Assembly (NCBI GenBank): GCA_944390005.1
Contig: CALXOJ010000004.1
Span: 124,001 to 188,000 of the forward strand
Length of the DNA stretch: 64,000 bases
Direction of reading: 5' to 3'
DNA from: an uncultured Spirochaetota bacterium
GTDB lineage: Bacteria; Spirochaetota; Spirochaetia; JAFGXN01
The notes under the pieces were generated by a model. It searched no databases and was not told the DNA's origin. It saw nothing but the letters and a program-made list of their open reading frames with translations. Within the stretch, counting starts at the first letter, position 1. Each line of letters opens with the position of its first letter. Both the position numbers and the translations under genes were made by a program. Shown here one piece after another: positions 11,213-55,310 of the stretch.

Positions 11213-11233
11213 GTCCGCAAAAGGAAAAGGCCG

Positions 11234-12484
11234 ATGAAAAACGAAACGCTGGCGACGAAACTTTACCGCCGTTTTGATACGCCGATCCGCGACCCCTTAT
11301 GGAACCACATTTATCTGGACGAAGCATTTACCGCAATCACACGAACAGAACCGTTTGACAATCTGACAAAAATCCGCCAGCTTGGACCTTCATTTCGCGT
11401 TTATCCGGGGGCTGTTCATACGCGGGCTTCGCACAGCCTAGGTGTTTTTGAAATCGGTAAGCGAATTTTAATGCGGCTGCTCAGAGATCCGTTTTGCCCC
11501 GCTTTGAGCGAAATCGGCGCACTGTCGTTTTTAACCGCTTGCCTTCTCCACGACACAGGGCATTTCCCTTTTACCCATTCACTCAAAGAATTGCCGCTGA
11601 AAGAACACGAACAAATCAGTGCAGAAATCATCCTCGAAGAGTCGCTGCGCTCAAAAATCAAAGCGGCCGGCGCCGATCCCGAGTTTTGTGCTGCCGTCAT
11701 TGACGACTCGATTTCAACGGGAGAGAGTGAAATTCTTTTTTACCGCAACATTCTTTCCGGAACTTTGGATCCCGATAAACTCGATTACCTCAACCGCGAC
11801 GCTTATTTCTGCGGCGTTCCGTACGGAGTTCAGGACATCGACCGTGTTCTGGATCGAATGACAGCCGACGATCTCAACGGAATCGGTTTGTATGAAGACG
11901 GCATTCTTTCGGTGGAAAACATCCTTTTCTCAAAATATTCGATGTATCAAAGCGTTTATTGGCACAAAACCGTTCGCAACGCAACCGCCATGATAAAAAA
12001 GGGGGTTGCAGCGGCATTAAACCGCGGTTTTTTGAAACCGCAGTCGCTTTACCGTCAAAACGACGTCTCTTTTTTCGCCCTCCTGACCGACAGCCGCTTT
12101 CCGCTGCACCGTTTCTTTTCCGATGCCGACAAAGGCCGATTCTATCTCTGCGTTGCCGAAAAACAGTTTTCGGAATTTTCCGGACAGCAGCTGACTGAAT
12201 TGGAGGCGCGCGCACGGTTTGAAGCGGAAACGGCGGCCGCTCTCGGCGTTCCGGAGACCGAAACGGATTTGCCGGTCATTCTCGATATTCCGGAACCGAT
12301 CCGTTTTGAGACGCAAATTAAACTTTTTAATAAAAATCACGAAGCGAGTGCCGGTAATCCGTCGATTTTTGACGGCAACGGCAGCCGGCGATTCTCAGAT
12401 TGTCTGCGGCGGGTTCGGCTTTTTGTCCGTCCAGACATCAGCCGGCTGATCGGGAGCGAGGAATGGCAGAGTTTTCTCAACTAA
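11234..12484 (+). CDS. HD-domain phosphohydrolase, SAMHD1/dGTPase-like
   Basis: A 416-residue HD-domain protein of the COG1078 type. The metal-binding residues are visible as HTRASHSLGV near residue 62, LLHDTGHFPFTHS near residue 105, and DKLDYLNRDAYFCG near residue 180, the order found in dNTP triphosphohydrolases and SAMHD1. The true substrate of bacterial members is mostly unknown, so dNTPase activity is inference. The end of the gene overlaps the start of the TtcA-like gene by 22 bases. Confidence 0.85.
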   Translation: MKNETLATKLYRRFDTPIRDPLWNHIYLDEAFTAITRTEPFDNLTKIRQLGPSFRVYPGAVHTRASHSLGVFEIGKRILMRLLRDPFCPALSEIGALSFLTACLLHDTGHFPFTHSLKELPLKEHEQISAEIILEESLRSKIKAAGADPEFCAAVIDDSISTGESEILFYRNILSGTLDPDKLDYLNRDAYFCGVPYGVQDIDRVLDRMTADDLNGIGLYEDGILSVENILFSKYSMYQSVYWHKTVRNATAMIKKGVAAALNRGFLKPQSLYRQNDVSFFALLTDSRFPLHRFFSDADKGRFYLCVAEKQFSEFSGQQLTELEARARFEAETAAALGVPETETDLPVILDIPEPIRFETQIKLFNKNHEASAGNPSIFDGNGSRRFSDCLRRVRLFVRPDISRLIGSEEWQSFLN

Positions 12485-13227
12485 AAGAGATTTTTTCCGG
12501 AAACATTCCGCCGCGAATTCACCGTTTTGTGAAGGAAACCGGACGCGGTATCAATGAACACAAGATGATCGGCGACGGAGACAAGGTAATCGCCGGCATT
12601 TCCGGAGGAAAAGACTCTCTGGCGATGGCAATGGCGCTTTCGTTGCGGCGCAAACATCTTCCGATCCGCTACGATTTGGAAGGCGTTATGATTGAGTGGA
12701 AAGAACATCCTCTTTCCCCTGCTTACCGTACCGACATTGAACACTTTTTTAAAATTCTCGGCGTGCCGTTTTCGATTCTGTCGTTTCAAATGCAGCCGGA
12801 GAGCTTTCACGGAAAATTCAACTGCTATCTGTGCGCCCGCAACCGCCGTCGAATTCTTTTTGATTACGCGGCGGAAAAAGGAATCAAAAAAATCGCTTTC
12901 GGGCACCATCTCGACGATTTGGTTGAAACAGCACTGATGAATCTCTTTCATCGCGGCAATTCGGCTCCGATGAAGCCGGTTTCATCATTTTTTGACGGAA
13001 AAATTGAGGTTATTCGCCCTCTTTGTCTGGTTAAAGAGTCAACTGTTCAACGTTTATCGCAGTCGCTGGAGTTTCCGATTTTGGAAATAGACTGTCCGTT
13101 TAAAGAAATCAATTTACGCAAAGACGTCAAAGAGATCATTCGTCAGATGACAAAAATCGATCCGTTGACAAGGGAGCACATTTACAACGCTTACTTCGGA
13201 AAGGAGAAAAATCGTGGCAGAAATTAA
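12463..13227 (+). CDS. TtcA-like tRNA 2-thiolation PP-loop ATPase
   Basis: A 254-residue PP-loop protein. SGGKDS at residues 47-52 binds ATP; CYLCARNRRR at 121-130 provides the two-cysteine motif, and a further Cys in DCPFKE near residue 213 fits the third cluster-ligand position. TtcA enzymes bind an Fe-S cluster and thiolate cytidine-32 in tRNA; the match is to the family and other TtcA/TilS relatives modify other positions. I chose ATG 12463, preceded by a GAGGA, over an upstream in-frame ATG at 12400 that would lie deep in the preceding gene. The stop lies inside mutL. Confidence 0.85.
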   Translation: MAEFSQLKEIFSGNIPPRIHRFVKETGRGINEHKMIGDGDKVIAGISGGKDSLAMAMALSLRRKHLPIRYDLEGVMIEWKEHPLSPAYRTDIEHFFKILGVPFSILSFQMQPESFHGKFNCYLCARNRRRILFDYAAEKGIKKIAFGHHLDDLVETALMNLFHRGNSAPMKPVSSFFDGKIEVIRPLCLVKESTVQRLSQSLEFPILEIDCPFKEINLRKDVKEIIRQMTKIDPLTREHIYNAYFGKEKNRGRN

Positions 13228-36076: not shown

Positions 36077-36108
36077 AAAGAGGGAGAAAAGAATTTCTCT
36101 CCCTCTTT
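36077..36108. terminator. bidirectional terminator between convergent genes
   Basis: An 11-bp stem (AAAGAGGGAGA, 36077-36087, with its complement at 36098-36108) has T-rich sequence on both outer sides. It separates the plus-strand 385-residue gene from the minus-strand HerA operon. Confidence 0.8.
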
Positions 36109-36136: not shown

Positions 36137-36535
36137 TTAATCGTAATAACCTTTTCGAAACAGCAGTACCGACTCGATTTGATTATGATCCGGGGCATAA
36201 ACAGAAATCCCCGCATCCGAATCGATAAGCCCGTATTCATCTTCACGGCAATTGTGATCTTTTAAAAGTTTAACCGCTTCCGCATAAGAAATTTGCAGAA
36301 GATTTTTATCACGGTAAAGAACCGAATTTGCCGGAAAAACCTCCACAGCTTCTACCTTATCGGAACCATCATAAAAAACATGGTATCCGCCGAAATCATC
36401 TGTCGTATTTTGACTGAATTTTGTTTTTTTAAATTCACGGAACGAATCACCGCTTTCTTTACGAACAGTTCCTCTTTCCTCTCCGAACAGGATTGTTCCC
36501 ACCGAAATGCAAGGTTTAAAAATCATCTCAGACAC
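36137..36535 (-). CDS. unknown 132-residue protein, candidate immunity protein
   Basis: A 132-residue acidic protein that I do not recognise, rich in strands (GGYHVFYDGSDKVEAVEVFP, ESVLLFRKGYYD). It begins at GTG 36535 inside the end of the toxin-like gene, with AAGGAGG upstream, so the two are coupled. Small acidic proteins encoded directly after polymorphic-toxin nucleases usually block them; that role is inferred from position only. It ends the four-gene operon. Confidence 0.65.
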   Translation of the reverse strand: MSEMIFKPCISVGTILFGEERGTVRKESGDSFREFKKTKFSQNTTDDFGGYHVFYDGSDKVEAVEVFPANSVLYRDKNLLQISYAEAVKLLKDHNCREDEYGLIDSDAGISVYAPDHNQIESVLLFRKGYYD

Positions 36536-37064
36536 CTTTCTCCTCCTTTATGCTTTTGTAATACTCTTCCGCCTGTTTGATAGCTTCATCGTACTTATCT
36601 CCGAATTTATCGCGAATGTCTTCGATATCCATTTGCATGGCTTCTTCGAATTTGCCTTCCTGTATCAATTCTTTCTGTTTTTCCCGGTATTCGCGGGCTT
36701 CCCTCGAGTTACCGCAACTGGCAGTTTCCCGATGATCTTCTCTTTCCATAACAATTGCCGGTCCGTCATTGCGCTCCAAAGGACTGGCTTCCGCCGAAGG
36801 CATATGATGCACTTCTTCCGGCGGATCACTGTTCCATCCGTGTCCTTCTTCTTTTAATTCACCGTAACTGCCGCCTTTTTTCTTTTCGGAAACTTCGGCT
36901 TTGCTGTCCGGATCAAAATCGTTTGATTTCATTTCCGACTTCGAAGAAATCTCCGCACGTTTATCGGGATCAATTTCATATCTCTCTTTTAAATCCTGCT
37001 TTCCGACTTCTTTTCCTGCATGTTCGACGGCTTTTTCACCGAGTGTACCGAGTGATTCTATCAT
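36528..37064 (-). CDS. small protein resembling a polymorphic-toxin nuclease domain
   Basis: A 178-residue protein. Residues 1-75 are charged and look disordered; the rest (about 78-170) resembles nuclease modules seen at the C-terminus of bacterial polymorphic toxins: EVHHMPS near residue 84, then GPAIVMEREDHRETASCG, a REYREKQKELIQEGKFEEA helix and DKFGDKYDEAI. The paired His in EVHH and the later Asp-His are the likely metal or catalytic residues of an HNH/EndoVII-like fold. There is no signal peptide or trafficking domain. Its ATG overlaps the HerA stop (ATGA). The match is from memory of the family and should be tested by profile search. Confidence 0.6.
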   Translation of the reverse strand: MIESLGTLGEKAVEHAGKEVGKQDLKERYEIDPDKRAEISSKSEMKSNDFDPDSKAEVSEKKKGGSYGELKEEGHGWNSDPPEEVHHMPSAEASPLERNDGPAIVMEREDHRETASCGNSREAREYREKQKELIQEGKFEEAMQMDIEDIRDKFGDKYDEAIKQAEEYYKSIKEEKGV

Positions 37065-40000
37065 AATACTCCCTCATTCCTCCATTTATTGTAAGATTGA
37101 TTGTCGGAAAGTTCGTTATATAAATACTGTGTGATAACACATTGCCGAATATTCCGTATCTGTTCAACAGAAATCCGAGGATTTAATTCACGAATGGCAT
37201 TATCGACAGCCAATGTCCATGCTCTCGGTTCCGGTGTTACAGAAAAGGCATTTGTCAGTACTTCTTTCAAACCGGGTAATAATTCGCAGACAAGAGGCGC
37301 CAGTTTTGTAAAACGTGGTTCATCGGAAGAGTCCATCGTCTTAATAACGGCAACCTTTGAAGAACCGGGTAACGGCAATTCATCCAAAAGCAAATGTATT
37401 CTCTCCGTATCGGTTTCTTCTTTTTGAAACAATGACTGAACCACTTCCAATCTTTTTTGCGTTAAATCGACATTTTCCGTCACGATTTCCGGTTCGAAAA
37501 CAAAAGATTTCTCCTTTTTTTGCTGAAAATGGTCGACTTTACACAAAACCGGTTCGATCCATTCGTTCTGGTAAACGGCCGCAACGCCGCAAGGCAGTTT
37601 AGCCAATTCGATAATCTGGTCGTCGTTCAAATTGGCTGCCTTTCCGACCAGCTCCCGATCCGCTTTATCCGGAAGCCTCATCAGAATCTTTGTGTTGGTA
37701 TTGCGAATGACCGCCTTATCCAAAAGCCCCGGAGCCTGGTCGACAATGATGAAGCCCTCGCCGTATGTGCGCATTTCGGCTATCGCATTGGTGATCATCT
37801 CGACCGATTTTGCCTGAAGAGCCGACTCCGTACCGTTAACAGGCTGTTTTAAAAGATTATGCGCTTCTTCGATCACCGTAACGTGATTCAAATCTTCGTT
37901 CATACCGCCGCAGGACATTCGGTACTCCTGAAGTTTTAGCAGAAGAATCCCCATTAAAAGAGCTTTTGTTTCGCCGGAACCGACACGGCTCAAATCGGCA
38001 ATCACATTTTTATCAAATAAATCGTGTGCCGGAATTTCATCCGATCCGAAAATCAGGCCGTTGATACCGTTTGTCAGTGACTGCAGACGGGTCATCAGAG
38101 ACCCTTTGTAAGCTCCTTTGTTTTCGGAATCGTATTCGGACGAATCGATAACGGTGCGGATATTGCGAACGACATCGGCAAATCCGGGGTAATAGGAATC
38201 GCCGTACGGGTTGACGGATGTCATCAAATCCCAGCCGGTATCCTCGTACGACCTGACAATCGCATCCTTTAAGACCGCCGGCATCGCCGCATACAGCGGC
38301 CAGCAGACATTAAATATTTCAATTAAACGGTCGATATGTTCCAGAACGTGAATTCCCTTCGGAAAAGAAAAGGGATTAATCCGCAATAATTTCGAAAGCT
38401 GCGGGTTGGTTCCGTATACCGACACATCTTTCCGGTTCCCGAAAACGTGTTTATATTCCCCTTTCGCCGGTTCGATGACCAGAAACGGAATTTCGTACAC
38501 TTTTAAAAGACTTCCCAAAATGGTGTATACGGTATTCGATTTTCCGCTGCCGGTCGACCCGGTAATAAAGGTATGGGAACAGAAGCGTTTCAAACTCAAA
38601 CCGACGTCGGCGCTTGCGTCTTCTTTATGCATGTGATAAACATGTCCCAATTCGATGCGCTCTTCCGATTGCGACCCACCGCCTCCGCCGTTAAACTCGG
38701 ATACGTTTCTGCCGAACCGGGCACATTCGATGACCGGCACTCCCGAAACGGAACGGTTCGGTAATCCGGCATGAATAGCCAGTTCCGCACTGCTGACCAG
38801 CGTTCCCGGCGTAACCGATGAAATCGTCGGTGTCGACAAAACGGGATGTTTCATAGCCTTTAAGTAGGGCAATATTTCCCGGGATTTTTGATCATCCCAC
38901 ACCGTAATGCCTCCTGTCTCGAGCGAAGAGTTTTTTCCCCGAATCAACGCCTGATAAGTATCGGCCGCCAGCTGCGAAACAATCGGCGTATCGGAAAGAC
39001 AGTAAACCGCACAGTTCCACATTCCCAAATCGGCACACTCATCATACCGTTTCAGCTGCTCATCGATTTTCGTCATAATCTGCGTTACGGTATGATTTTC
39101 TTCCATGTACTGAAACGAAGTACTGGTGCCGGCCGCTTTTGCCACCCCCTCCGAAAAACTGGACGATGTCGTATCGGTTGTTCCGTGAGTTTTGGTTGTC
39201 GTTGTTGTCGTCGATTCAAATTCACCCGATGAAGAGGAATGAGATGACGAAACACCTGCGTTCATCCCCATGCTTTTTCCATTGCCTGTTGTTATGCCGC
39301 CTGTTATGCCCGCAGCCTTCCCTTTTGTTTTACTTGTCGAATGGGAAGTGCCCACCGTATGGCTGACGGAAACCGCCAGACTTTCGCTGACAGCATGAGA
39401 AAATCCTTTTGTATAATTCTTGGATGCCGTTACCGTTTCGTTTGTTCCCAATGAGACGGTGACACCGCTTAACGGGGAAAAACGGCTGTACAAATTTTCG
39501 AGACTGCGGCGGCTTTGTATCAAATCTTCATTGGAAATCGGGTCGGCAATCAGCAGTAGCGCATAATCGGGATTATTCTGCGTAATCCGAATCCGACTCA
39601 TCGAATCGATTAACTTTTCCAATCCCTGAACAAATCCCTCCTGGCTGCCCTCTTCGCTCCGGTCGCCGGCAATACCGGTAACGGTCGAAATATGAGGCAT
39701 CGAATCGATAACAGCGGCTATACTTCTTTCTATGGCATCATTATTTAACCTGTCAATTTCGATTCCCGGGAAATTCCCGTGAAGCGTTCCTTCGAGAATC
39801 TGCTGGGAAACACTGGCTTTTTGCGGGTTCACATGCCGTACACCGAAATAGATCGAAACTTTTCCCGTCCTACACCCGTGCAGGAAAAAGAGCAACGTCC
39901 CGCCGGTTTCCCAGACGGAACGAAACACCGAAACCAGTTTCTTTCGCGAATCTTCCTGCCGGTCAACAACCACCTGACTGATATTGATAAAGCGGATTTC

Positions 40001-40153
40001 CGTTTCCTCATTGTCCGCCGACAACATCAGATCGGCATTTCTCAATTCCGGTAAATACGATTTACTTAAAATGGTGTCGGTAATTTCAAAAGCCGGCAGT
40101 AAGTCCTGCACCGCCGGCACCGGTATTGTTTCCGTTGGCTTTTCTTTTCCCAT
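37061..40153 (-). CDS. HerA/DUF87-type hexameric ATPase with Ser/Thr/Gly-rich insert
   Basis: A 1030-residue ATPase of the HerA/FtsK/VirB4 superfamily. Walker A is TGSTGSGKSNT near residue 530 and the Walker B-type segment is VTVIEEAHNLL near residue 757, followed by an Arg-finger-bearing helicase core (IIVDQAPGLLDKAVIRNTNTKIL). Residues about 245-335 form a striking low-complexity insert (VSHTVGTSHSTSKTKGKAAG, later TTTTTTKTHGTTDTTSSS). HerA-type proteins form hexamers that pump DNA or protein or assemble with nucleases in anti-phage complexes. Here a nuclease-like gene follows by ATGA overlap and a coiled-coil protein gene precedes. No membrane helix is obvious. Confidence 0.85.
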   Translation of the reverse strand: MGKEKPTETIPVPAVQDLLPAFEITDTILSKSYLPELRNADLMLSADNEETEIRFINISQVVVDRQEDSRKKLVSVFRSVWETGGTLLFFLHGCRTGKVSIYFGVRHVNPQKASVSQQILEGTLHGNFPGIEIDRLNNDAIERSIAAVIDSMPHISTVTGIAGDRSEEGSQEGFVQGLEKLIDSMSRIRITQNNPDYALLLIADPISNEDLIQSRRSLENLYSRFSPLSGVTVSLGTNETVTASKNYTKGFSHAVSESLAVSVSHTVGTSHSTSKTKGKAAGITGGITTGNGKSMGMNAGVSSSHSSSSGEFESTTTTTTKTHGTTDTTSSSFSEGVAKAAGTSTSFQYMEENHTVTQIMTKIDEQLKRYDECADLGMWNCAVYCLSDTPIVSQLAADTYQALIRGKNSSLETGGITVWDDQKSREILPYLKAMKHPVLSTPTISSVTPGTLVSSAELAIHAGLPNRSVSGVPVIECARFGRNVSEFNGGGGGSQSEERIELGHVYHMHKEDASADVGLSLKRFCSHTFITGSTGSGKSNTVYTILGSLLKVYEIPFLVIEPAKGEYKHVFGNRKDVSVYGTNPQLSKLLRINPFSFPKGIHVLEHIDRLIEIFNVCWPLYAAMPAVLKDAIVRSYEDTGWDLMTSVNPYGDSYYPGFADVVRNIRTVIDSSEYDSENKGAYKGSLMTRLQSLTNGINGLIFGSDEIPAHDLFDKNVIADLSRVGSGETKALLMGILLLKLQEYRMSCGGMNEDLNHVTVIEEAHNLLKQPVNGTESALQAKSVEMITNAIAEMRTYGEGFIIVDQAPGLLDKAVIRNTNTKILMRLPDKADRELVGKAANLNDDQIIELAKLPCGVAAVYQNEWIEPVLCKVDHFQQKKEKSFVFEPEIVTENVDLTQKRLEVVQSLFQKEETDTERIHLLLDELPLPGSSKVAVIKTMDSSDEPRFTKLAPLVCELLPGLKEVLTNAFSVTPEPRAWTLAVDNAIRELNPRISVEQIRNIRQCVITQYLYNELSDNQSYNKWRNEGVL

Positions 40154-40159
40154 AATCTG

Positions 40160-41998
40160 TTACTCCAAAAAAACAAAATAAGACTTAATTTTCAACAAAA
40201 CAGAATCCCAAAGCTTTCCGACTCCTTCACTGTCATTAATCTGCATTCTTAAAAGCTGTATTTTTTCTAAAATCGAATTTTCCTGTGCAATCAACTTTTG
40301 TTCCTGTTGGAAAAACTGTTCTTTAAGTTCGGACGTAATTCTCAGAAAGCCGACTTTTTCCAAAGTATAAGCTTCCAAATCGTCCAAAAATGAGAGAACA
40401 TCTGCCATCAAACGGGGATAGACTTCTTTTAAAACAGACTTGACCGGATTCCAATTAATGATATATCGTTTTCCGATGCTATTCCAATTCTCCTCCCACT
40501 GAGAATGGACTTTGGCACAATCTATATTTCTCAACAAATGACTTTCATATCGCAAAAACAGGTTGAATTTTTCTTTTGTCATCCATTGGTCATAAAAATC
40601 GGAAATAAATTGTTCTGTTAAGGAAACTTTCCGAATTTTTTCCCAGCTGATTTTATTCCGATTCGTACTTAAAAAGGATAAGAAAGAATGGGAATATTCA
40701 TTTTTTATTTTTTTATATTGAGGAGGGTTCAATGAATCCGCAAAATTTTGAAGTGCCGAATAGTCCCGCAATCGAAAAAATTTCCTAAGCTTTTCAACGA
40801 AAATACGATTGCGTGATTCATCAGAATGCCAACCTGAATAATAAAAAATAGAATTGGGTTCACAATCCCAATCTCTTGAAAGAGTTCTTTCGTGGTATTG
40901 AATACAATAAGCCGAATTAGATTCTGAATTGTAGCGATCCAAATATTTACATAGCTGTTCTTCAAATCTTTTTCGATCCAGAATTTTCGGTATTTCCCGA
41001 TACTGTTCTTTTTCTTTCCGTAAAGCCTCACGCTGCGCTTTCAAATCCCGCAGATCCTTTTCCGCTGCCTCGATTTCCTCTTTCAGTTTTTCCACCTCGG
41101 AGGCATTTTTCCGAATCGGTTTCGAAAGGGAGTCATTAATTTGAGTAAAATATCCAAGCAGACATCCGCCGAAAACATAATCCCCGAAAAAGGTTTCCGT
41201 TGTTTTTTTGACTTCTTCGGAGACCGATTTCCGGTTAAACGCAAGCAGCGGTATTGTGTTCTCTTTCAACACCGAATCGATCCGGTCACAAAGATCTTCG
41301 TATTCTTCGCTTTCAAAATCGTATTCACACAGGAAAAAAGTATCGGGCAACGTTCGCCTGCTTCGGGATTCCAAAAGGGAACGGATTTTTTCCAAATACT
41401 GTTTACTCTTTTTAAAAGCCGTTCCGTCCAAGTCGCAAAGATGAATATAATAAAGGGCGTGTTCCGGTTCGGGAAGACTGTCTGCCGTTGCGGCATCGAC
41501 AACCGTCACTTTTCTTTCGGCATAATATTTGTTTTTTTCGGGATCATATAACAAAGTTCTAAGCTGGTCCGAACTCCATCCCGCATCCGGTGTCAGAAAG
41601 ACAATTTCGGTCATTCCGCCGGTAATTTGCCGATATTCTTCATGCAGAAAATCGTATTCGGATGCGTCATACTCACGAATTGCTTCACCGAGTTCCCGGT
41701 AAAGTCTTTCCGGTTCGTAAACCGTTTTTTCCGTCAGTGTTATTTGCAGCTTTTTTTCCGTTTCGGCTCCGTTTTTCAGGTAAGAAAGAAAGCGAAAATC
41801 TTTGGCCATTCCCGTAAACGAAACGGAGAGAACATCATCATTATATTTTTTGGCCAGAACCTCGAAACAGTTTCCTTTCCATTCCTCGAGCGGGATATCA
41901 CGGCTTCCGCAGCATTCCGAAAGCCGCTCTTCCGCCCCGTTAACCGCAATCTGCCGTCGGTTCGTCAGCGGATTTATCGAAAAATCAACATTCAGCAT
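40160..41998 (-). CDS. unknown 612-residue protein with central coiled coil
   Basis: First gene of the HerA operon. The N-terminal 280 residues are a mixed fold with no motif I know (including EIVFLTPDAGWSSDQLRTLL); around residues 295-335 a strong coiled coil occurs (EVEKLKEEIEAAEKDLRDLK and onward), followed by a helical C-terminus with another coiled coil near residues 555-590. It may be the adaptor or sensor of the HerA complex; this is inference from position. ATG 41998 follows AAGGAG by six bases. The gene is separated from the HerA ORF by only six bases. Confidence 0.7.
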   Translation of the reverse strand: MLNVDFSINPLTNRRQIAVNGAEERLSECCGSRDIPLEEWKGNCFEVLAKKYNDDVLSVSFTGMAKDFRFLSYLKNGAETEKKLQITLTEKTVYEPERLYRELGEAIREYDASEYDFLHEEYRQITGGMTEIVFLTPDAGWSSDQLRTLLYDPEKNKYYAERKVTVVDAATADSLPEPEHALYYIHLCDLDGTAFKKSKQYLEKIRSLLESRSRRTLPDTFFLCEYDFESEEYEDLCDRIDSVLKENTIPLLAFNRKSVSEEVKKTTETFFGDYVFGGCLLGYFTQINDSLSKPIRKNASEVEKLKEEIEAAEKDLRDLKAQREALRKEKEQYREIPKILDRKRFEEQLCKYLDRYNSESNSAYCIQYHERTLSRDWDCEPNSIFYYSGWHSDESRNRIFVEKLRKFFRLRDYSALQNFADSLNPPQYKKIKNEYSHSFLSFLSTNRNKISWEKIRKVSLTEQFISDFYDQWMTKEKFNLFLRYESHLLRNIDCAKVHSQWEENWNSIGKRYIINWNPVKSVLKEVYPRLMADVLSFLDDLEAYTLEKVGFLRITSELKEQFFQQEQKLIAQENSILEKIQLLRMQINDSEGVGKLWDSVLLKIKSYFVFLE

Positions 41999-42024
41999 GG
42001 ACGACTCCTTTTTGTATACATTCG

Positions 42025-42053
42025 ATTATACAACAGGTTTTCTTCCTTGACAA
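42025..42053 (-). promoter_or_regulatory. promoter of the HerA operon
   Basis: On the minus strand TTGTCA (42048-42053), exactly 17 bp and TATAAT (42025-42030), one of the strongest-looking promoters in the window, 27 bp upstream of the coiled-coil gene's ATG. Confidence 0.8.
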
Positions 42054-42096: not shown

Positions 42097-43206
42097 ATGA
42101 AGCGGGAAACCGGTTGAGAAGTAATCGGAACGGCGTTGGCGGTGGCTGTGTCGGTGCTGATGGTGGCGTTGCTGTCGGGGTGCCGGGCAGACGGGACGGA
42201 AAATCTGCGGCGGGAGCTGGAAAAGGCGGTTGAGGGGGTCGATGCGCGGATCGGCATCGCGGTGCTTTCCCCTTTCGGCGAATCGGCGGCGGTCAACGGC
42301 GGTGAAGATTTTCCGATGATGAGCGTCTTCAAACTCCATCAGGCGCTGGCCGTTTGCGACCGGCTGCACGGCAGCGGCCGAAGCCTCAACGAAACGGTCG
42401 CTGTCAAAGCCGAAGACATGGCGCTCGAAACGTACAGCCCCCTTAAAGACCGCTACCCGAACGGCGGAATCACCCTTTCGGTGGCCGAACTGACGGAATA
42501 TACACTGAAAAAAAGCGACAACATCGCCTGCGACATTCTCTTCGACCGCATTGTTTCGCCCGAAGAAACCGATGCGTTTATCCGCGAAAAAGCCGGAATC
42601 GACGGGGTGAAAATCCGCTACAACGAAGCCGAAATGCAGGCCGACCCGATGCGCGCTTACGAAAACAGCACGACACCGACGGCGGCTGTGCGCCTTTTGG
42701 AACGGCTGTGGAAGAATGAAATTCTTCCGGAAGAACAGACCGCCTTTATCAAAAAACTGATGATCGAATGCGAAACGGGTGCCCGCCTCTACGGCGGTGA
42801 TTACGACTACTTTCTGTGGAAAAAGGCGCAAACAGCCGCCGACACCCCGGCACCGGCCGTGCGCAACGGCAGCCCCGCCCCCTCCGGCCGCAGCAGCGCA
42901 CCGCAGCCGGCCGCCCCCGAAAGCCGCGGCGCAGCCGCCGGCGACGACCACCGCCGCCAAAAAGAACAGCGCAACCTCATCAACCGCCTGCAAAAGGAGT
43001 CGGAAACACTGTTGGCGCAAATCGATGATACCGAAGCGGAACTGAAGCGGCTGCACGCCGAATGGGCGCGCGAAGAGTGTTACAGCGATCCGCAAAAGTC
43101 GGCCGCCGTTGCCGAAGCGGTCCGCGCCGCCGAGGCCGAACAGGAGCGGCTCACCGCGCGCTGGGAGGCTGTCGAAGAGGAACTGGCCGCCGCCCGCAAA
43201 GGGTGA
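42097..43206 (+). pseudogene. CfxA-like class A beta-lactamase fused to the tail of an ABC-F protein
   Basis: The native start appears to be ATG 42097 (GGAGG upstream), but an in-frame TGA at 42115-42117 interrupts codon 7; the frame is then open from TTG 42136 for 356 residues. The first part has a lipoprotein signal (VALLSGC), the serine motif SVFK with LHQALAVCD as in CfxA-type enzymes, and SDN. Just where the KTG motif should follow, the sequence changes after CETGARLYGG to DYDYFLWKKA, a Pro/Ala-rich linker and a long coiled coil (QRNLINRLQKESETLLAQID) typical of ABC-F ATPase C-termini. So this is a deletion fusion lacking the KTG strand. The locus is GC-rich compared with its surroundings, in keeping with transfer. 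Confidence 0.8.
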
Positions 43207-43253
43207 CAGCCCCCGCACCCCGAACAGAAAGCAGCGCACCGCGGTTTGTCTCG

Positions 43254-43380
43254 AAAAAAACGTCCTACGTTTTTAAAAAAATCTCCTACGTTTTTAAAAA
43301 AACGTCCTATGTTTTTTAAAAAATGTCCTATGTTTTTTAAAAAATGTCCTGTGTTTTTGGGGAAATGTCCGACGTTTTCG
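43254..43380. repeat. 21-bp minisatellite, six copies
   Basis: Six tandem units with an exact 21-bp period, anchored on (C/T)GTCC-type cores at 43261, 43282, 43303, 43324, 43345 and 43366. Each unit is about AAAAAA-YGTCC-TAYG-TTTTTT. On the minus strand one frame would read a heptapeptide repeat (NIGHFLK and variants); the KAP gene uses another frame and ends inside the array. Units differ by one to four bases. The period is a codon multiple, so copy-number change would not shift frame. Confidence 0.9.
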
Positions 43381-44824
43381 GAAGATGCCCGGTCGAATGT
43401 TCGCACTCTTCTTTCAAATCGTACATGAAATCCGATTCATCTTCATCACCGGACAATATTTTCGTGACCGACTCAAAGACTCTTAAGAACAGTGTTGTTT
43501 GGCGAATACGCTCGCTGAAAGAAGACGCATAAAATGAATCAATATACTCGACTTTTTCTGCTTCCAGAAAATAAGCCAAAATCACGGATACGGGTTTTCC
43601 CATATCCGCAAGGAGTTTCCAGGCGGTTTGAGTCGAATCCTGTGTAAAGCAGTTATCCAATCGAAATATCTGACCGATTTTCCATTCGATTGGTGTCTTC
43701 TCCGATACATCCAGACGAATTCGAACGGGCACGGACGCCACAACTCCGAACCGCTCTTTATTTCCCAGATAATAAATCGAAACAGCCGTCAGAATTTCAT
43801 AGACTAAAACGCCGTAGTGAAACGAATCGAGCTGAACTCCCTGAAGGCGGGGGGCGCACTTAGCGCTCCAATTCACGGCCAATTCGTGACACAATTTAAC
43901 CTGTTTAAAAATCTTTTCCTGGTCGCGGCGCGGTATTTCTTCCATGATTTGTGAAATACAGGAAGATAAAAAATATCCGTCAAAAATCATTTTATGATAA
44001 AAAAACGGTATATACTCTTTGTCGAGCCCCATTAACAGATTTTCGGCGTCGGAATCGGTTCTGCCAAAAGACAACGGGATAACGATATCGGCAAATTTGG
44101 TCATGTATTTGTCAAAAAAAGAACGCACCACCTCCTCCTTCTCCTCCTTTGCAGAAGTTCCGTAAAAAACGTTATAGATGCTGTGAGCCAGACGGGAAGC
44201 GTCGACGGCGGTTATCAGAATGATTTGCGTTTCGCCGACAATGTGGTGCAGGCGTTCCAAAACTTTCACGGCGTATTCGGGCAGGCAGCGATCCAGTTCG
44301 TCGACAATCAGCACCACCGGCCTCTTTTCGGACAAATCGGCTAATGCGGAATGTAATTTTCCGACAGCTGCCGTTAGCGGCAAACAGGTATCAATCTCTT
44401 TCGGAGAAAGAAATTGCCTTTCATGCTTTTTAACAAATTTCAGAATTTTAGCCGCCCCTTTAATTTGGCGAAGCCCGGTCAGATCGCCCATGAGTCCGAT
44501 AATCTCAATGAGATTGTCGATAAATTCTTTTTGATCATCTTTTTCGGATAAAATCCGATTTTCTTTCATTTGCTCCAAAAACACAGAAACCAGAGCCATC
44601 AGCGGTTCGTCGTAATAATCGCGTTCCCAGGCGTTGTAATGAAAAATAAGGGCGCGGGTTTCGAGCTGTTTTTCCAGCATTTGCAAAACATAGGTTTTGC
44701 CGCTTCCCCATTGACCGTCGATAGCCAGCGAATAACCGGCTTTATTGTCGATTTTGTTTTCAATGACCTGCCGAACCATTTCGACATAATCGCCCCGTTT
44801 GAGAACGTCGGGAGGAAGAACCAT
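43337..44824 (-). CDS. KAP-family P-loop NTPase
   Basis: A 495-residue KAP-type NTPase. Walker A DGQWGSGKT is at residues 36-44 and Walker B VVLIVDELDRCLP near 168-180, both in the KAP style. No clear transmembrane helices are inserted, unlike many KAP proteins. ATG 44824 lies 4 bp after the SIR2 gene stop, with AAGGAG nine bases before it, so the two are one unit. The last eight residues (SPKTQDIF) come from the minisatellite, so the C-terminus has been rewritten or truncated by the array. KAP NTPases occur in conflict systems, but this pairing is not one I can name. Confidence 0.85.
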   Translation of the reverse strand: MVLPPDVLKRGDYVEMVRQVIENKIDNKAGYSLAIDGQWGSGKTYVLQMLEKQLETRALIFHYNAWERDYYDEPLMALVSVFLEQMKENRILSEKDDQKEFIDNLIEIIGLMGDLTGLRQIKGAAKILKFVKKHERQFLSPKEIDTCLPLTAAVGKLHSALADLSEKRPVVLIVDELDRCLPEYAVKVLERLHHIVGETQIILITAVDASRLAHSIYNVFYGTSAKEEKEEVVRSFFDKYMTKFADIVIPLSFGRTDSDAENLLMGLDKEYIPFFYHKMIFDGYFLSSCISQIMEEIPRRDQEKIFKQVKLCHELAVNWSAKCAPRLQGVQLDSFHYGVLVYEILTAVSIYYLGNKERFGVVASVPVRIRLDVSEKTPIEWKIGQIFRLDNCFTQDSTQTAWKLLADMGKPVSVILAYFLEAEKVEYIDSFYASSFSERIRQTTLFLRVFESVTKILSGDEDESDFMYDLKEECEHSTGHLPKTSDISPKTQDIF

Positions 44825-44828
44825 ATAG

Positions 44829-47800
44829 CTACTCTCCTTTTGATAACGGATTCTCCTGAATCCAATATTCGATAGCATCACTGCTTTGATGGTATTTTTC
44901 CTTGAGAATTGCGGCCAGCTGTTTCAGCTGTGCTTTGACAAATAAAATATCGTAGCAGTACGGAACAGACAATTGAAATTTTCTCAAAATTGCCAGCGCC
45001 AAAGACAGGGTATATTCATTATTGAAAATACCGTGCCAGTATTCGTCATCACCGAAAGCATTAACAATAACTTCTATTACTGCCTCAAATTCACGATCAT
45101 CCTGAACATAAACTTTTGTCAGACCGGCATTAAAAACATACAAGTATTCCTTCGTAATATTCAGGGCTCGAAAATAACGAAACGATCTGATATAAGAAAT
45201 CTTGAACTTCTGTAAATTGGGGGTATAGAGCCATTCCAAACGGAGGAAATCTGCCAATTCGCTCCGAAGTGCTTCCCGAAATACTTCGCAAGTTTTTTCT
45301 ATCGAAGGGCTTTTCCGGCGCTCTTCTTCATTTGTTATATAATTTAAAGATGAATAATACGAATTGAAAAAAATAAGTCGATCATCCGAATCCCGTCCTA
45401 ACAAATCGGGATTTTCTTTGTAAAAATCATAGTATTTTAAATAAATCCGGGCAATCTCTTCCTTATCCCCAAAAGAGAGAAGTTCCGCAGTATGGAGTGC
45501 ATTGATATAATCGGATATCCGGTAATCGGAGGGAGAATGGAAGCGGGTCATTTCATGCTTTCTGACCGTATCCATCACCTTTTCCCTGACGGCTTCGGAT
45601 TTAAGTAAAATAACAAAATAAGGATCTCTTTGAGTAAAAATCATTTCAGGATAGGCTTGTTCCACCTTTTTTTGAATATCGTTTTTTAAATAAGGATATC
45701 CGTACAGACAAAGCTGCATTCTGTCTTTCACGTCCTGTTCCAGCAAGTCCCGAATTTCCTTTAAACCAAAAACCTGCCGAATTACGGAGTGCATATCTTC
45801 CTTTCTCAGCAACTCCTGATAATAATACAAAAATTCGGAATAAAAGATCTCACGTGTCTCTTTGGAGGCATCTTCCCGAAACCGACGCATAACCCATTGT
45901 AAAATAAAAGCAAACTGTTTTTTATTTTTGAGCCGCTCTATATAAACGGTAAACGGCAACATAGCACCCCATCTGTCCCCTAAAGATATCAGGTATCTGA
46001 TCTGATGGTCATCATCCGACGGGCTTTGAATTTCGTCAAAAAAAAAGTCGAAAAACGGTTCCCCGGTTCGGGGATCCGTATATTTCGACATTTCTGCCAG
46101 TAAAAAAAGATAGATATATATAATCTCTCCGGATTTTAATTTTTGTTTGAGAATGTCAAAAGCTGCACTAAAAATGTGCGCAATCGTTTTTTCCGGTAAA
46201 AACCTCATGATTTTCGACAAAACAAGACGTAAATAGCCTTCATTTGAATCATACCCAAACGCCGAAAGAGAATAAGCAAAAAGTTTTACCAAATGATAGG
46301 ATGATTCGGCAAGTCCGGGAATCATTTCGATTACTTTTTTATTTCGTATTAACCCGAACACCGGCTGCCCCGTATACTCGCAAAAATTAAGGTGCCGCAC
46401 CGCATAAAAATACTCTTTATTCGGATCGACCATCATCGGAATAGTCACCTCATATCTTACCGACTCGTTAAAAGATAACGACTCGGAGGTATGGTGCCGA
46501 AACGCATCGAGAAAATCGGAGGGATTTTTAATTTTTCTATCGGGGGAAATAGTCTCGCTTATCCGATACCCCGGATTGGAAAGTCCGCCATTCAATGTTT
46601 TTTTATAGTAATTGATATTGGCAGCAACAAAATGTTTCAGTTGCGGGGTGTCTTTATCGCACGCTTTCTCTGCCGCTTCCGCCAACGCACGAATCTCTTC
46701 TTTTTGCTCCCGATTTTGATACCTTAAAGATTCGAAAAGATTCAAAAGCGTCATTTTTCGTAAAATAAAAAGCGCGTTCGGCTTTTCTCTTTTTTCGGGA
46801 TGCCATTGCATCAAAAGTGTTTTGAGTTCCGTATAACGCAAACGATCTATACAGTTCAACGCTTTTTGATAAAAAACAATCTCTTCCAGATTTGCGGATT
46901 TACCTTCGTTCTCGCAAAAAAGGTCAAACTCCTTTTGCCGCTCTGTTTCCCGATAATACTTCAGAATCAGCTCCGAAAAAACAAAGGCGTCCGTTTTTAT
47001 CAAATCCTTTTCCCGAAATTTCAGAACAATCTTTTCGACTGTTTCGACGGAATAAAGATCTGTCAGAGAATAATAATTGCTCAAAAGCCAACGGTATAAG
47101 AAAATGTAGTGAACCTCTGTCCAATTCTCAATATCGCCCGCCATTTCCTGAACCTTGGATATTAAAAATCGGGGAATCACCAGATTGTAGTAAGAAAAAA
47201 GCTCGATACTGTTATATTTTTCCATATCGGAAAGAGATAATTTTCCGTTTGAAAAATCAATTTCTCTGATAATACGAAAATCAGTCTGATCAAAATTATC
47301 TGTCAGTAATTTTGTATTTTTAAGACGGGCGATTTCTTCAAAAATGAACTCGTTTAAAGAGAAATAAGTTAATTCTTTATGGTTATTGTTCTTACCGTGA
47401 CTGTCGGGCAGCTCATGGTCTGCGTTCAGCAAACGATAGTAATCGCGTACTTTGAGTCTGATAATGTTGTTGTTGCGGTAAAATTGATTTAAGGCTCTTT
47501 CATATTCACTGTCCGACGGTTTCGGATCAAAGGGGCACACATCGAAAAGAAAAATCGGATTGGGATATTCCGTATTTCCGCCTTTGGTCATCGTTCTCTT
47601 TAATTCTTTTATCCAATAAAGGAAATTGGGATCCCGACCGGAAAACCCCATCAGGCAAAACGGCAGTTCAAGGATTTTTGTCTGCATAAAATTGAAAAAG
47701 GATGCATGTTCGGTTTTGTAATTGTCGAAATCCGACTGTGTCGCAATATACAAACAGGAATCGCAATCATCAAAACTGTATTCGTTTTTATCGACTTGCT

Positions 47801-48422
47801 CTTTTGTCCGAATCGATCCGTTCAATTTTACAATCCGACGATCCTTCCGACACCGTAAATCCTTCGCTCTTTGAACAGGATAATAACCATTTTCCGCCGG
47901 ATTTCTTTCCAGTAAATCATCCCAATTGGTTGTCATGACATCGACCCATCCCAACTCCAAAAGTCTTTGATGTAAGGAAAGATTATCCGTATTTTTATCG
48001 ATACGGGAAAACTGATTTTCTATATAAATATCCAGCGCCTCCCGCATACCGCCTTTTGCCTTTACATATTCTTGGGCAACAACCGTTTCACCCTTTTGTA
48101 GTATTTCTTTCTCGATATTTTCCTCATCGCATTTCGGATACAGTTCTTTGTAAGCGTTTGTTAAAAGTGCTGCCCAGTTTTGATAACAGGCTTCTTTCTT
48201 TTGCTGTTTTCCCTCATTGGCATTTAAACTGAAGCCGGCACCCACCATCACGGATATTCCGCCTTCCGTCAGTTTTTGGGCAATATAGTTGAGACACATT
48301 TCGAATTTCAGACGCTCATTCGATTCGTGATAATACTTTTCATATTCAAACAGATTCGGCGAAGCGACAATTTTCTGCCGACCGGAGTCAATTTGTTTAT
48401 CGGACACTTCTTCTTCCCTCAC
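44829..48422 (-). CDS. SIR2-domain defence-type protein with helical C-terminus
   Basis: A 1197-residue protein with an N-terminal SIR2 NAD-binding domain and a long helical, TPR-like remainder. Visible are GAGFSLNA at residues 61-68, TTNWDDLLE at 164-172, KLNGSI at 199-204 and GFSGRDPNF near 268. The third motif has Asn201 where catalytically active SIR2 proteins usually have His (LHG), which could mean altered or lost NADase activity. SIR2 effectors in anti-phage systems destroy NAD to stop infection. The ATG overlaps the hsdS stop (ATGA), and a KAP NTPase gene follows. I do not see a STAND NTPase within this protein. Confidence 0.85.
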   Translation of the reverse strand: MREEEVSDKQIDSGRQKIVASPNLFEYEKYYHESNERLKFEMCLNYIAQKLTEGGISVMVGAGFSLNANEGKQQKKEACYQNWAALLTNAYKELYPKCDEENIEKEILQKGETVVAQEYVKAKGGMREALDIYIENQFSRIDKNTDNLSLHQRLLELGWVDVMTTNWDDLLERNPAENGYYPVQRAKDLRCRKDRRIVKLNGSIRTKEQVDKNEYSFDDCDSCLYIATQSDFDNYKTEHASFFNFMQTKILELPFCLMGFSGRDPNFLYWIKELKRTMTKGGNTEYPNPIFLFDVCPFDPKPSDSEYERALNQFYRNNNIIRLKVRDYYRLLNADHELPDSHGKNNNHKELTYFSLNEFIFEEIARLKNTKLLTDNFDQTDFRIIREIDFSNGKLSLSDMEKYNSIELFSYYNLVIPRFLISKVQEMAGDIENWTEVHYIFLYRWLLSNYYSLTDLYSVETVEKIVLKFREKDLIKTDAFVFSELILKYYRETERQKEFDLFCENEGKSANLEEIVFYQKALNCIDRLRYTELKTLLMQWHPEKREKPNALFILRKMTLLNLFESLRYQNREQKEEIRALAEAAEKACDKDTPQLKHFVAANINYYKKTLNGGLSNPGYRISETISPDRKIKNPSDFLDAFRHHTSESLSFNESVRYEVTIPMMVDPNKEYFYAVRHLNFCEYTGQPVFGLIRNKKVIEMIPGLAESSYHLVKLFAYSLSAFGYDSNEGYLRLVLSKIMRFLPEKTIAHIFSAAFDILKQKLKSGEIIYIYLFLLAEMSKYTDPRTGEPFFDFFFDEIQSPSDDDHQIRYLISLGDRWGAMLPFTVYIERLKNKKQFAFILQWVMRRFREDASKETREIFYSEFLYYYQELLRKEDMHSVIRQVFGLKEIRDLLEQDVKDRMQLCLYGYPYLKNDIQKKVEQAYPEMIFTQRDPYFVILLKSEAVREKVMDTVRKHEMTRFHSPSDYRISDYINALHTAELLSFGDKEEIARIYLKYYDFYKENPDLLGRDSDDRLIFFNSYYSSLNYITNEEERRKSPSIEKTCEVFREALRSELADFLRLEWLYTPNLQKFKISYIRSFRYFRALNITKEYLYVFNAGLTKVYVQDDREFEAVIEVIVNAFGDDEYWHGIFNNEYTLSLALAILRKFQLSVPYCYDILFVKAQLKQLAAILKEKYHQSSDAIEYWIQENPLSKGE

Positions 48423-49888
48423 CCCTCAACCGCTTTTTCGATAATATCAAGGATACCAAAAATCTGCTCTGTCTTTTCCACAATCCGCTTTTGTTCGGCA
48501 AGAGGCGGAAGGGGGAAAAGTAGCTCTCTAAACGAGTTCAAACCAACAAATCTTTGTACTCCACCACGTGCATTTTTCCCCAAAATATCCTGCATATAGT
48601 AAAAGAAATAATAGACATATTTCATATTGGTATATTCTAGTGCATATCGCTTTAGTAAGAGAACATTTTTTATACTGAAATTTCTGTCTTTTTTGACAAT
48701 GACAGGATTCCCTATACTTCCTATCATTGCCATCAAAATATCTCCATCTTCAACAAAAGACCTTTCTGAAAACTTTCTATGATCACTTTCTGAAATATAA
48801 GAACATGTTGAAAAATCAATTTCACCATTTCTAAGATTTTTTGCAGTTACAAAAGGAATACCTTGACTGTAATATTTAGGAGAATCATGTGTTCCATCTC
48901 TTACATCCAAATAGCTCCCCAATCTCACCCACTTCCACCCGGCGGGAATATCAAAAGGTATTTCCTCTTCCGTAATTTCCGGCAGGGGCTTCTCTTTTTT
49001 GAGTTTTCCCCCCGCAATCAGGCGCTGTTTTTCTTCTCTGACGCGCGCTAACAGTTCAGCCGCGCTGCCGTCTTCGGGACGCTGTTCTGTCAGCTTGCCC
49101 CGTACCGCCAAATCCAGCACCCGGCTTTTGGTGTGACGTACCGCGGTTTTTAACGCCAGCCGTTTTTCTTCGATAATGTCTGCCTGTTTGAAAATCGCTT
49201 CAATCTTTTCCACAATCCGTTTCTGTTCGGCAAGGGGTGGAAGGGGAAATAATGTATTCGCAACATAATCTCTGCTAATTCTTTGTTGTCCCACAGCTCC
49301 AGAGAAACAGGCAATCCCATTTTTTATAAAACTTTCTGTTTTGACAAACCAAAAAAGAAAGGTGTCTGATAAAATATCATGAATTGGACGTAAAATATGT
49401 AATTCTGTTGTACCCGCACCAAAACCATTTACAAGATTCTTAAAAAGCACAGATTTTTTGTTTTCAAAACAAGGTGTTATTTTCGCTATACCTACATCAT
49501 TATCTGCAAAAACAGTAAATCCGGATTTAACGGAATCCCATTGTCTGATTTCGTATGTAAAGTTTCTTGAAAAACCCGGACTGATACAAGCCATAGGAAC
49601 AAAGGAAATATCAATATTTTTTTCTATATTATTTCTTGGATTTATATCACATATCTCCCCCAACCTGCACCACTCCCAACTGGCGGGGATATTAAAGGGC
49701 TTTTCGTCTTCTGTTATTTCAGGCAGTTTTTTTTCTTTTTTTATTTTTCCTTCGGCAATCAGGCGCTGCTTTTCTTCTCTGACACGCCCTAACAGTTCAG
49801 CCGCGCTGCCGTCTTCGGGACGTTGTTCCGTCAGCTTGCCCCGTACCGCCAGATCGAGGATTTTTGATTTCAGGTGGGCAATCTTCAT
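48419..49888 (-). CDS. hsdS: type I restriction-modification specificity subunit
   Basis: A 489-residue HsdS with two target-recognition domains (about residues 70-190 and 310-430), each followed by a conserved helix (FPLPPLAEQKRIVEKIE at about 217-233 and again near 456-472). Each half begins with the same conserved block containing LDLAVRGKLTEQRPEDGS. It determines the DNA sequence recognised by the HsdM/HsdR complex. Start ATG 49888 overlaps the fic stop and the stop overlaps the SIR2 ATG, both as ATGA. Confidence 0.93.
   Translation of the reverse strand: MKIAHLKSKILDLAVRGKLTEQRPEDGSAAELLGRVREEKQRLIAEGKIKKEKKLPEITEDEKPFNIPASWEWCRLGEICDINPRNNIEKNIDISFVPMACISPGFSRNFTYEIRQWDSVKSGFTVFADNDVGIAKITPCFENKKSVLFKNLVNGFGAGTTELHILRPIHDILSDTFLFWFVKTESFIKNGIACFSGAVGQQRISRDYVANTLFPLPPLAEQKRIVEKIEAIFKQADIIEEKRLALKTAVRHTKSRVLDLAVRGKLTEQRPEDGSAAELLARVREEKQRLIAGGKLKKEKPLPEITEEEIPFDIPAGWKWVRLGSYLDVRDGTHDSPKYYSQGIPFVTAKNLRNGEIDFSTCSYISESDHRKFSERSFVEDGDILMAMIGSIGNPVIVKKDRNFSIKNVLLLKRYALEYTNMKYVYYFFYYMQDILGKNARGGVQRFVGLNSFRELLFPLPPLAEQKRIVEKTEQIFGILDIIEKAVEG
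49014..49110 (-). repeat. direct repeat within hsdS, copy 2
   Basis: 97 bp encoding the second conserved block of HsdS. It matches 49755-49851 with about five substitutions; the copies are 741 bp apart, a multiple of three, so recombination between them would delete one recognition domain in frame. Confidence 0.85.
49755..49851 (-). repeat. direct repeat within hsdS, copy 1
   Basis: 97-bp partner of 49014-49110, encoding the first conserved block of HsdS near the N-terminus. Confidence 0.85.
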
Positions 49889-50808
49889 CGGCTGCTGTCC
49901 TCTTCTTCGTAATAGTAGGAATAATCGATTCCTTTCATAAACATTTCCCGGTCGTCGATTTTATCGGTTAACGCCTCAAACAGCAGTTTTTTGATGAATG
50001 CCGCATCGGCAACACTTTCGCTCATGGCGTTCAGATAGTCGTTTTTATTGATCCGGCTCCAATCGATACATCGATTCAAAGAATGCTTTAACATTAAATC
50101 GAGCCAGATACGGGTTGCTCTGCCGTTTCCTTCCATAAAAGGATGGGCAACATTCATTTCCACATATTTATCCGCTATCTGTTCAAAAGTCTCTTCGGGC
50201 ATCCTTTCGATTTGTTCCAGAGTGGCACCGAGAAACTCCGCAGAGGCAAAATGAAAACCGCCTTTGGAAATATTGCGGGTGCGCAGGGAACCGGCAAAGT
50301 CGTAAAGTCCTCCAAAAAGGTATGCGTGTATCTGTTGTAACGATTTGACGGTTCCCGGCTTCAGTGTTTGAAGGATACCGCTTTCAAAAAGCTGATACGC
50401 CTTTTTTTTGCTTTGTCCGTCAACGGTATTATCGCTGTAGAGAAACCAATCCAAAAAGGCGGCTGCTTTTTCGTTCGGAATGGATTTTGCCACGGTAATC
50501 ACTTCGCGGCTGTCCAAAACATCACTGCTGTATTTTTTTCCGTCGGCAGCGGTGATTTTCAGTTTGTGAGTGCTGCTCACGAACTGAACGCCCTGTAATT
50601 TCAGTTTTCGCTTCAGCCACCGCCAGTAGTTACCGGCTTTGGTGTAGTCCGCTTCGTTGTTCACGGCTCCGATAATATCTGTTGCCGAAAACCACCATTT
50701 GCTGTTTTGTTCATCCCAAAAGGCACGGACTTCATGGTCATTGAAAAAGCGGATGGAAATTTTCCGGGAAGAATCAACAGAATTGTCATCTTTCACCTGA
50801 ATGCTCAT
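49885..50808 (-). CDS. Fic/DOC-family protein in the type I R-M operon
   Basis: A 307-residue protein. The Fic core carries HPFMEGNGR at residues 222-230, a full HPFx[D/E]GNGR motif, so it could transfer AMP to a target protein. The first about 120 residues (FFNDHEVRAFWDEQNSKWWF, SATDIIGAV) resemble the Bro-N/RhuM-like DNA-binding module, giving a Bro-N-Fic fusion. No obvious inhibitory (S/T)xxxE(G/N) helix is recognised by eye. It lies directly between hsdM and hsdS, with 0-bp gap and ATGA overlap, so it is made with the R-M enzyme. Confidence 0.85.
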   Translation of the reverse strand: MSIQVKDDNSVDSSRKISIRFFNDHEVRAFWDEQNSKWWFSATDIIGAVNNEADYTKAGNYWRWLKRKLKLQGVQFVSSTHKLKITAADGKKYSSDVLDSREVITVAKSIPNEKAAAFLDWFLYSDNTVDGQSKKKAYQLFESGILQTLKPGTVKSLQQIHAYLFGGLYDFAGSLRTRNISKGGFHFASAEFLGATLEQIERMPEETFEQIADKYVEMNVAHPFMEGNGRATRIWLDLMLKHSLNRCIDWSRINKNDYLNAMSESVADAAFIKKLLFEALTDKIDDREMFMKGIDYSYYYEEEDSSR

Positions 50809-55156
<4,348 letters not shown>

Positions 55157-55310
55157 CACTATTTTTCCGCTGACAGGAAAAGTATACACTATTTTCCGGG
55201 TTTTATCTATGATAAAATTTGATGAAAATTACAAGAACCAAAACGGCAACTCTCTTCATTAAATGAAGATTAAAAATGAAATTTTTATGAAATATTTTAA
55301 AAAAAATCAT

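Follow-up and report, generated by a model that had tools for sequence, protein, structure and literature searches.

The window analysed here is a stretch of 64,000 nucleotides (nt) from an uncultured Spirochaetota bacterium (contig CALXOJ010000004.1 of assembly GCA_944390005.1, positions 124,001 to 188,000). It carries an operon of four minus-strand open reading frames (ORFs), running from 41998 to 36137 and encoding proteins of 612, 1030, 178 and 132 residues, as an initial annotation made from the letters alone had laid out. The products are, in order, a protein related to the dynamin-like partners of this ATPase family (P612), a HerA/DUF87-family motor ATPase, a toxin-like effector and its predicted immunity protein. 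The features of the operon are collected in Table 1.

Architecture of the operon

The single strong promoter of the initial annotation is found at the operon front and is the top-scoring of the 10 promoter-like sites in the region, where the numbers of promoter-like and terminator-like sites are at chance level. Its end is separated by 26 bases from the ATG of P612, which is preceded by AGGAG. P612 and the ATPase gene are 6 nt apart, the ATPase gene overlaps the toxin gene as ATGA, and the toxin and immunity genes overlap in GTGTCTGA, so that both overlaps noted earlier are present. A stem-loop at 36080-36101 lies directly past the immunity gene. The isoelectric points are 5.4 for P612, 5.5 for the ATPase, 4.8 for the toxin and 4.95 for the immunity protein, which had been described earlier as acidic.

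Table 1. Coordinates of the operon's features in the window, with the basis of each assignment
Feature	Position	Strand	Basis
Sigma-70-type promoter TTGTCA-17-TATAAT	42025..42053	-	11/12 consensus matches; operon front
P612, dynamin-partner-derived 'NPY protein' without GTPase, 612 residues	40160..41998	-	Class-I dynamin-like profile, 6.5e-16
NPY N-terminal domain, P612 residues 1-114	41657..41998	-	Window-independent NPY profile, 2.6e-14
Predicted long helix / coiled coil, P612 residues 261-334	40997..41218	-	AlphaFold2 secondary structure; weak coiled-coil Pfam matches
HerA/DUF87-family motor ATPase, 1030 residues	37061..40153	-	Pfam DUF87 6.5e-11; NCBIfam NF033849 3.4e-38, below cut-off
Ser/Thr/Gly-rich insert, ATPase residues 233-355	39089..39457	-	41% Ser+Thr
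Walker A GSTGSGKS, ATPase residues 532-539	38537..38560	-	Invariant residues in family alignment
Walker-B-like VIEEAHN, ATPase residues 760-766	37856..37876	-	Family alignment and direct reading
Toxin-like effector, 178 residues	36528..37064	-	Position, overlap and N-terminal motif as in 85 other loci
N-terminal motif repeats IDPDKRAEIS / FDPDSKAEVSE, toxin residues 30-61	36882..36977	-	Motif shared by many loci whose C-termini differ
Putative variable C-terminal toxin domain with EVHH and DH, residues 84-172	36549..36815	-	Alignment invariants; likeness to Streptomyces HINT toxin
Predicted cognate immunity protein, 132 residues, GTG start	36137..36535	-	Relatives in same three loci as toxin

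The assignment of the second product to the HerA/DUF87 ATPases holds by the Pfam match and by both Walker motifs. Its Ser/Thr/Gly-rich insert is also present, with a Ser+Thr content of 41% compared with 17% across the whole ATPase, and measures about 123 residues rather than the roughly 90 given before. In 36 of 78 relatives this insert holds a hydrophobic segment, which is often Gly-rich.

The EVHH and DH motifs read in the 178-residue protein contain residues that are invariant across its three relatives, namely HH (86-87) and DH (110-111). The C-terminal domain of the toxin is 48-52% identical to these relatives (loci L028, L065 and L040), and relatives of the immunity protein (34-39% identity) are found in exactly the same three loci. 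The ATPases of those loci are 40-44% identical to that of the window, whereas the nearest ATPases (about 51% identity) carry other toxin types. Further afield, a HINT polymorphic toxin encoded on a plasmid of Streptomyces glaucescens has a C-terminus with 43% identity to the domain. In Ruminococcus albus KH2T6, the window-type immunity gene occurs as an orphan, with the toxin absent. In the L028 genome, a small contig bears a degenerate toxin whose immunity gene is intact, along with a HINT-like fragment and other small genes. The EVHH domain has no match in Pfam, a fold search with the predicted toxin structure gave no match, and a sequence search of the PDB with the toxin returned designed proteins and chance matches only. 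In the AlphaFold2 (AF2) model, the N-terminus is disordered and the C-terminus is helical and confidently predicted (predicted local distance difference test, pLDDT, 81-94 for residues 101 to about 170), the HH strand region being of low confidence. Because HH and DH are conserved, and because of the toxins in whose company the domain is found, we infer that it is a metal-dependent HNH-like nuclease.

Conservation of the gene set and exchange of its toxins

A genome scan returned at least 558 relatives of the ATPase, from which the best 80 were kept, and the sample is hence biased to near relatives. Gene order was read in 86 loci by means of a simple ORF-chain caller. A dynamin/NPY-family protein is encoded just upstream of the ATPase in every locus with upstream sequence, a small toxin-like gene lies just downstream in 86 of 86 (with an overlap of mostly -4 or -1), and a second small, immunity-like gene follows in 85 of 86, L008 being the exception and the positional call in L022 being uncertain. 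This recurrence of the arrangement (84/84 testable loci) is far above chance. The co-occurrence of the four families, which had been put forward as a check on the initial annotation, is thereby borne out. HerA relatives that are about 30% identical (L009-L011) do not have the set, and therefore the association is specific to this branch of ATPases. Most relatives also have membrane links, in the form of a protein with a C-terminal hydrophobic anchor and a hydrophobic ATPase insert.

The host genome itself (1.95 Mb) provides a second copy. A paralogue of the ATPase, 53% identical to that of the window, is encoded at C1:12774-15854 within a locus (L003, C1:4000-23900) that includes two dynamin-like GTPases of 431 and 752 residues (Dynamin_N 1.8e-14 and 1.7e-13). 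A 174-residue protein with a C-terminal hydrophobic segment is encoded between the dynamins and the ATPase, and a 193-residue colicin-DNase/WHH protein (4.5e-32) and a 131-residue SUKH protein follow the ATPase. The likeness between the effectors of the two copies is confined to a short N-terminal stretch. This second copy, the dynamin-like family upstream and the exchangeable toxin with its constant N-terminus had all escaped the initial annotation.

The effectors are polymorphic. Among 82 of them, the Pfam types are Colicin-DNase (45), WHH (43), LHH (9) and Endonuclea_NS_2 (8), with the DUF6782 metallopeptidase (3) and Ntox15 (1) being rarer, while 79 immunity proteins include SUKH (28), DUF6985 (23), YezG-like (7) and Tdi1_C (1) types. 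Clustered toxin type and immunity type share a mutual information of 0.87, against a maximum of 0.37 in 2000 shuffles. On a tree of the ATPases (a quick tree with a parsimony count), at least 31 changes of toxin type are counted versus 7 changes of machine class. The N-terminus behaves otherwise than the toxin domain: the similarity of the first 50 residues of the effectors rises with ATPase identity, whether the C-terminal types are the same or different. For example, L075 and L085/L087, whose ATPases are 75% identical, give N-terminal scores of 126-135 and C-terminal scores of 21-23, the 95% value of shuffles being 32. FDPDK-like or DKPL-like motifs are recovered by a simple pattern in about half of the effectors. 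Apart from the toxin domains, Pfam finds nothing in the effectors, and no signal peptide, WXG/LXG, PAAR or TcdB-type trafficking domain is present. Read from these sequences, the logic is that of polymorphic toxins, here on a HerA motor: a variable C-terminus, a matched immunity gene downstream and a toxin domain shared with other polymorphic toxins. The earlier proposal of a HerA-driven conflict module, in which an immunity protein accompanies a toxin-derived effector, gains support from the co-recurrence of the genes and from the matching of toxin and immunity types.

Some loci carry more than one cassette. L121 and L122 have two in tandem (L121:9459-11516), a WHH-type followed by a metallopeptidase-type. 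In L124 (10773-13085), four small proteins are encoded behind one ATPase and three of them start with a similar M..I(G/D)(N/S)F.E.E, which suggests several substrates per motor. We also note that L008 (R. albus pRUMAL01) encodes, next after its ATPase, a 515-residue protein (11040-12587) with a Gly-rich hydrophobic end, possibly a pore-former, and that no immunity gene is called behind it. Downstream of the ATPases of L125-L127 (37-38% identity) come genes for a small acidic protein, an NPY protein that lacks the GTPase and a protein resembling Hsp70/DnaK, and a J-protein-like gene lies slightly further on; these loci, in which the chaperones were assigned by eye, may represent a chaperone-coupled class.

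P612 was originally described as a coiled-coil protein. This may apply to the part that contains the long helix, which is modelled at low confidence before residue 290, but not to residues 1-114, where P612 resembles the N-terminal domain found in class-I dynamin-like partners (hmmsearch 6.5e-16, hhalign 97.7%). By this NPY domain and its position upstream of the ATPase, P612 is identified as a member of the partner family. The AF2 pLDDT of the domain is mostly 62-88, and the mean over the whole model is 55. The best fold match of the model is the Campylobacter jejuni dynamin pair 5OWV (E 1e-3, low TM score), which is only a hint because dynamin-like rows are present in the alignment of the model. 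A tblastn search of plasmids with P612 gave no match. Class I and class II partners have the Dynamin_N GTPase (class II partners of about 850 residues, 1e-18 to 1e-20), which Pfam does not find in P612. A degenerate G domain in residues 115-292 was considered and rejected, as it scored no better than 500 shuffles.

The missing GTPase raises the question of whether the window copy is a decaying remnant that no longer works, and the negative G-domain search and the short ATPase insert without a hydrophobic segment point the same way. However, the four ORFs are intact, and the overlaps, the promoter, the Walker motifs and the conserved residues of toxin and immunity protein are all kept. Moreover, NPY partners that lack the GTPase are found in four separate places of the ATPase tree (the window, L007, L008 and L059/L068) and again in contigs L124-L127, where the NPY protein of L124 has two C-terminal transmembrane segments; the P612 type is therefore a recurrent variant rather than a unique case of decay. 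We regard loss of function as improbable.

The kept relatives come from Bacillota, Spirochaetota, Actinomycetota and metagenome-assembled genomes named as Campylobacter, Bacteroidales and Myxococcales, names that may be wrong. The set is accessory, being found in 10 of 393 genomes of the window's phylum and, in a near search only, in 1 of 5426 E. coli genomes. Treponema saccharophilum, Lactococcus cremoris and E. coli TW10590 each have a plasmid with the complete set, and an Exiguobacterium plasmid has the same order with the dynamins absent. Such plasmids would be expected if the toxin and immunity protein formed an addiction-type module that stabilises plasmids or islands, the ATPase and dynamin-like genes being maintenance or transfer factors. 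Nevertheless, the majority of copies examined are off recorded plasmids, the toxin gene stands before the antidote gene, and no partition or relaxase genes recur alongside. The toxin N-terminus also tracks the motor, so toxin and motor would work together. An addiction role is thus improbable.

A possible role in toxin delivery

Comparison of the encoded proteins across the family shows a constant machine, a variable toxin, a matched immunity protein and a toxin N-terminus matched to the machine. With moderate confidence, we read the operon as a polymorphic-toxin cassette on a HerA-family motor, whose toxin is delivered to neighbouring cells. The FDPDK motifs at the N-terminus of the toxin would act as a docking signal on the machine, and the hexameric HerA motor would unfold or pump the toxin at the expense of ATP. 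The NPY/dynamin partner may place the complex at the membrane. The toxin would then be released toward neighbouring cells, with the immunity protein guarding kin. The broader proposal is more tentative, namely that the family represents an undescribed delivery machine of Bacillota, Spirochaetota, Actinomycetota, Pseudomonadota and others, in which a HerA hexamer with dynamin-like or dynamin-derived partners exports exchangeable toxins that bear a short N-terminal tag.

Upstream of the operon, the window contains a defence island (43337-55189) with a KAP NTPase (PDC-S20), a SIR2 protein with a Dsr2-like N-terminus, HsdS, a Fic protein (PDC-S04), HsdM and HsdR. Between the two, an ORF on the plus strand (42136-43206) has an N-terminal part resembling a class A beta-lactamase (Beta-lactamase2, 4.5e-24) joined to a segment that matches ABC_tran_CTD (7.8e-9), and looks like a chimera or a broken gene. 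At about 43200-43406, the ORFs read as short repeats (KKTSYVFKKISYVF / GHFLKNIGHFLKN), which suggests that the 3' end of the KAP gene carries a small array of tandem repeats.

Several observations weigh against delivery. Neither a secretion component nor a surface-delivery domain of a known kind goes with the family. Transmembrane segments are predicted in none of P612, the ATPase insert, the toxin and the immunity protein of the window, and a hydrophobic segment was looked for in its short insert without success. The adjoining KAP, SIR2 and type I restriction-modification genes, the last with their Fic protein, and the WYL regulators that precede several dynamin-type loci would suit a weapon that acts inside the cell. 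In such a system, abortive or DNA-capturing, a HerA ring and its dynamin-derived partner would sense the entry of a phage or plasmid, or membrane damage, and free or direct the toxin in the same cell, while the immunity protein only silences it before infection. HerA rings are used in several defence systems (the PADLOC HerA models match weakly here), and a bacterial dynamin confers phage resistance on Bacillus subtilis (PMC8844932); the lack of a predicted membrane anchor in the window copy is likewise compatible with this role. On the other hand, the metallopeptidases among the effectors mean that the feeding of DNA to a nuclease is not general, and they fit delivery better than such a machine. 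Frequent switching of effector and immunity protein on a steady machine, together with toxin-less orphan immunity genes, is what would be expected for competition between cells. We consider the anti-invader role less probable than delivery, although the WYL regulators and the neighbouring island speak for it. Export of the toxin to rivals is favoured because of the polymorphism, the orphan immunity genes, the metallopeptidase effectors and the link of the Leo dynamins to toxin release.

If delivery is correct, the family would provide interbacterial competition in gut and rumen bacteria with a new motor, perhaps also with a new secretion route, and bacterial dynamins with a concrete job. If defence is correct, it would be, to our knowledge, the first polymorphic toxin/immunity cassette coupled to a HerA motor for use against invaders. 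On both readings, the set predicts numerous toxin/immunity pairs that now go by 'hypothetical' or 'HNH endonuclease', and the complete copies on Lactococcus dairy plasmids, such as the dynamin-type set of pF27B, make the system testable.

Comparison with known systems

The proteins of the operon match no named system in Pfam, NCBIfam, PADLOC or PHROGs, and open-licence papers (preprints were outside the scope) gave nothing that brings HerA, a dynamin and a polymorphic toxin together. Profile searches and literature thus agree with the initial annotation, which knew of no named system with this four-gene order. The component families are known, and the assembly, found in no Pfam, NCBIfam, PADLOC or open-licence source, is apparently undescribed.

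The ATPase resembles the family of NCBIfam NF033849 ('serine-rich protein', ser_rich_anae_1) in its Ser-rich insert, but it scores 130.7 bits against a cut-off of 650, and the name gives neither function nor partners. Like the HerA anti-phage systems (NCBIfam NF042943 and NF042944; PADLOC HerA), the operon encodes a HerA-type motor with Walker motifs beside an effector. The scores of the window ATPase are nevertheless far below the cut-offs of these families (48.2 versus 800 and 31.4 versus 850 bits), and their effectors are of SIR2, DUF4297 or NurA type, in contrast to the polymorphic toxin, immunity protein and dynamin-derived partner observed here. An FtsK/HerA-superfamily motor is likewise tied to polymorphic toxins in type VII secretion (EssC). 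The present ATPase, which has a single motor domain, reaches 9.8 bits against 778.4, and no WXG100, LXG or other type VII secretion genes are annotated near the loci read.

Paired bacterial dynamins are known from LeoABC of enterotoxigenic E. coli, where the Leo dynamins have been tied to toxin release (PMC4159319), and from DLP1/DLP2 of C. jejuni (PDB 5OWV). Members of the present family match the PADLOC LeoA and LeoBC models weakly. The sets differ in composition: LeoABC and DLP1/DLP2 have no HerA ATPase or toxin cassette, and P612 has no GTPase.

The 2012 survey of polymorphic toxins (PMC3482391) describes the same organisation of a constant N-terminus, a variable C-terminal toxin and a cognate immunity gene downstream, and the same families, WHH, LHH, NS_2, Ntox15 and SUKH. 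The survey lists the FtsK/HerA ATPases of type VII secretion, and no dynamin or HerA-dynamin machine. Compared with the systems described there, the toxins of the present family are small (about 140-340 residues, with two longer), and a short N-terminal motif takes the place of the known trafficking domain.

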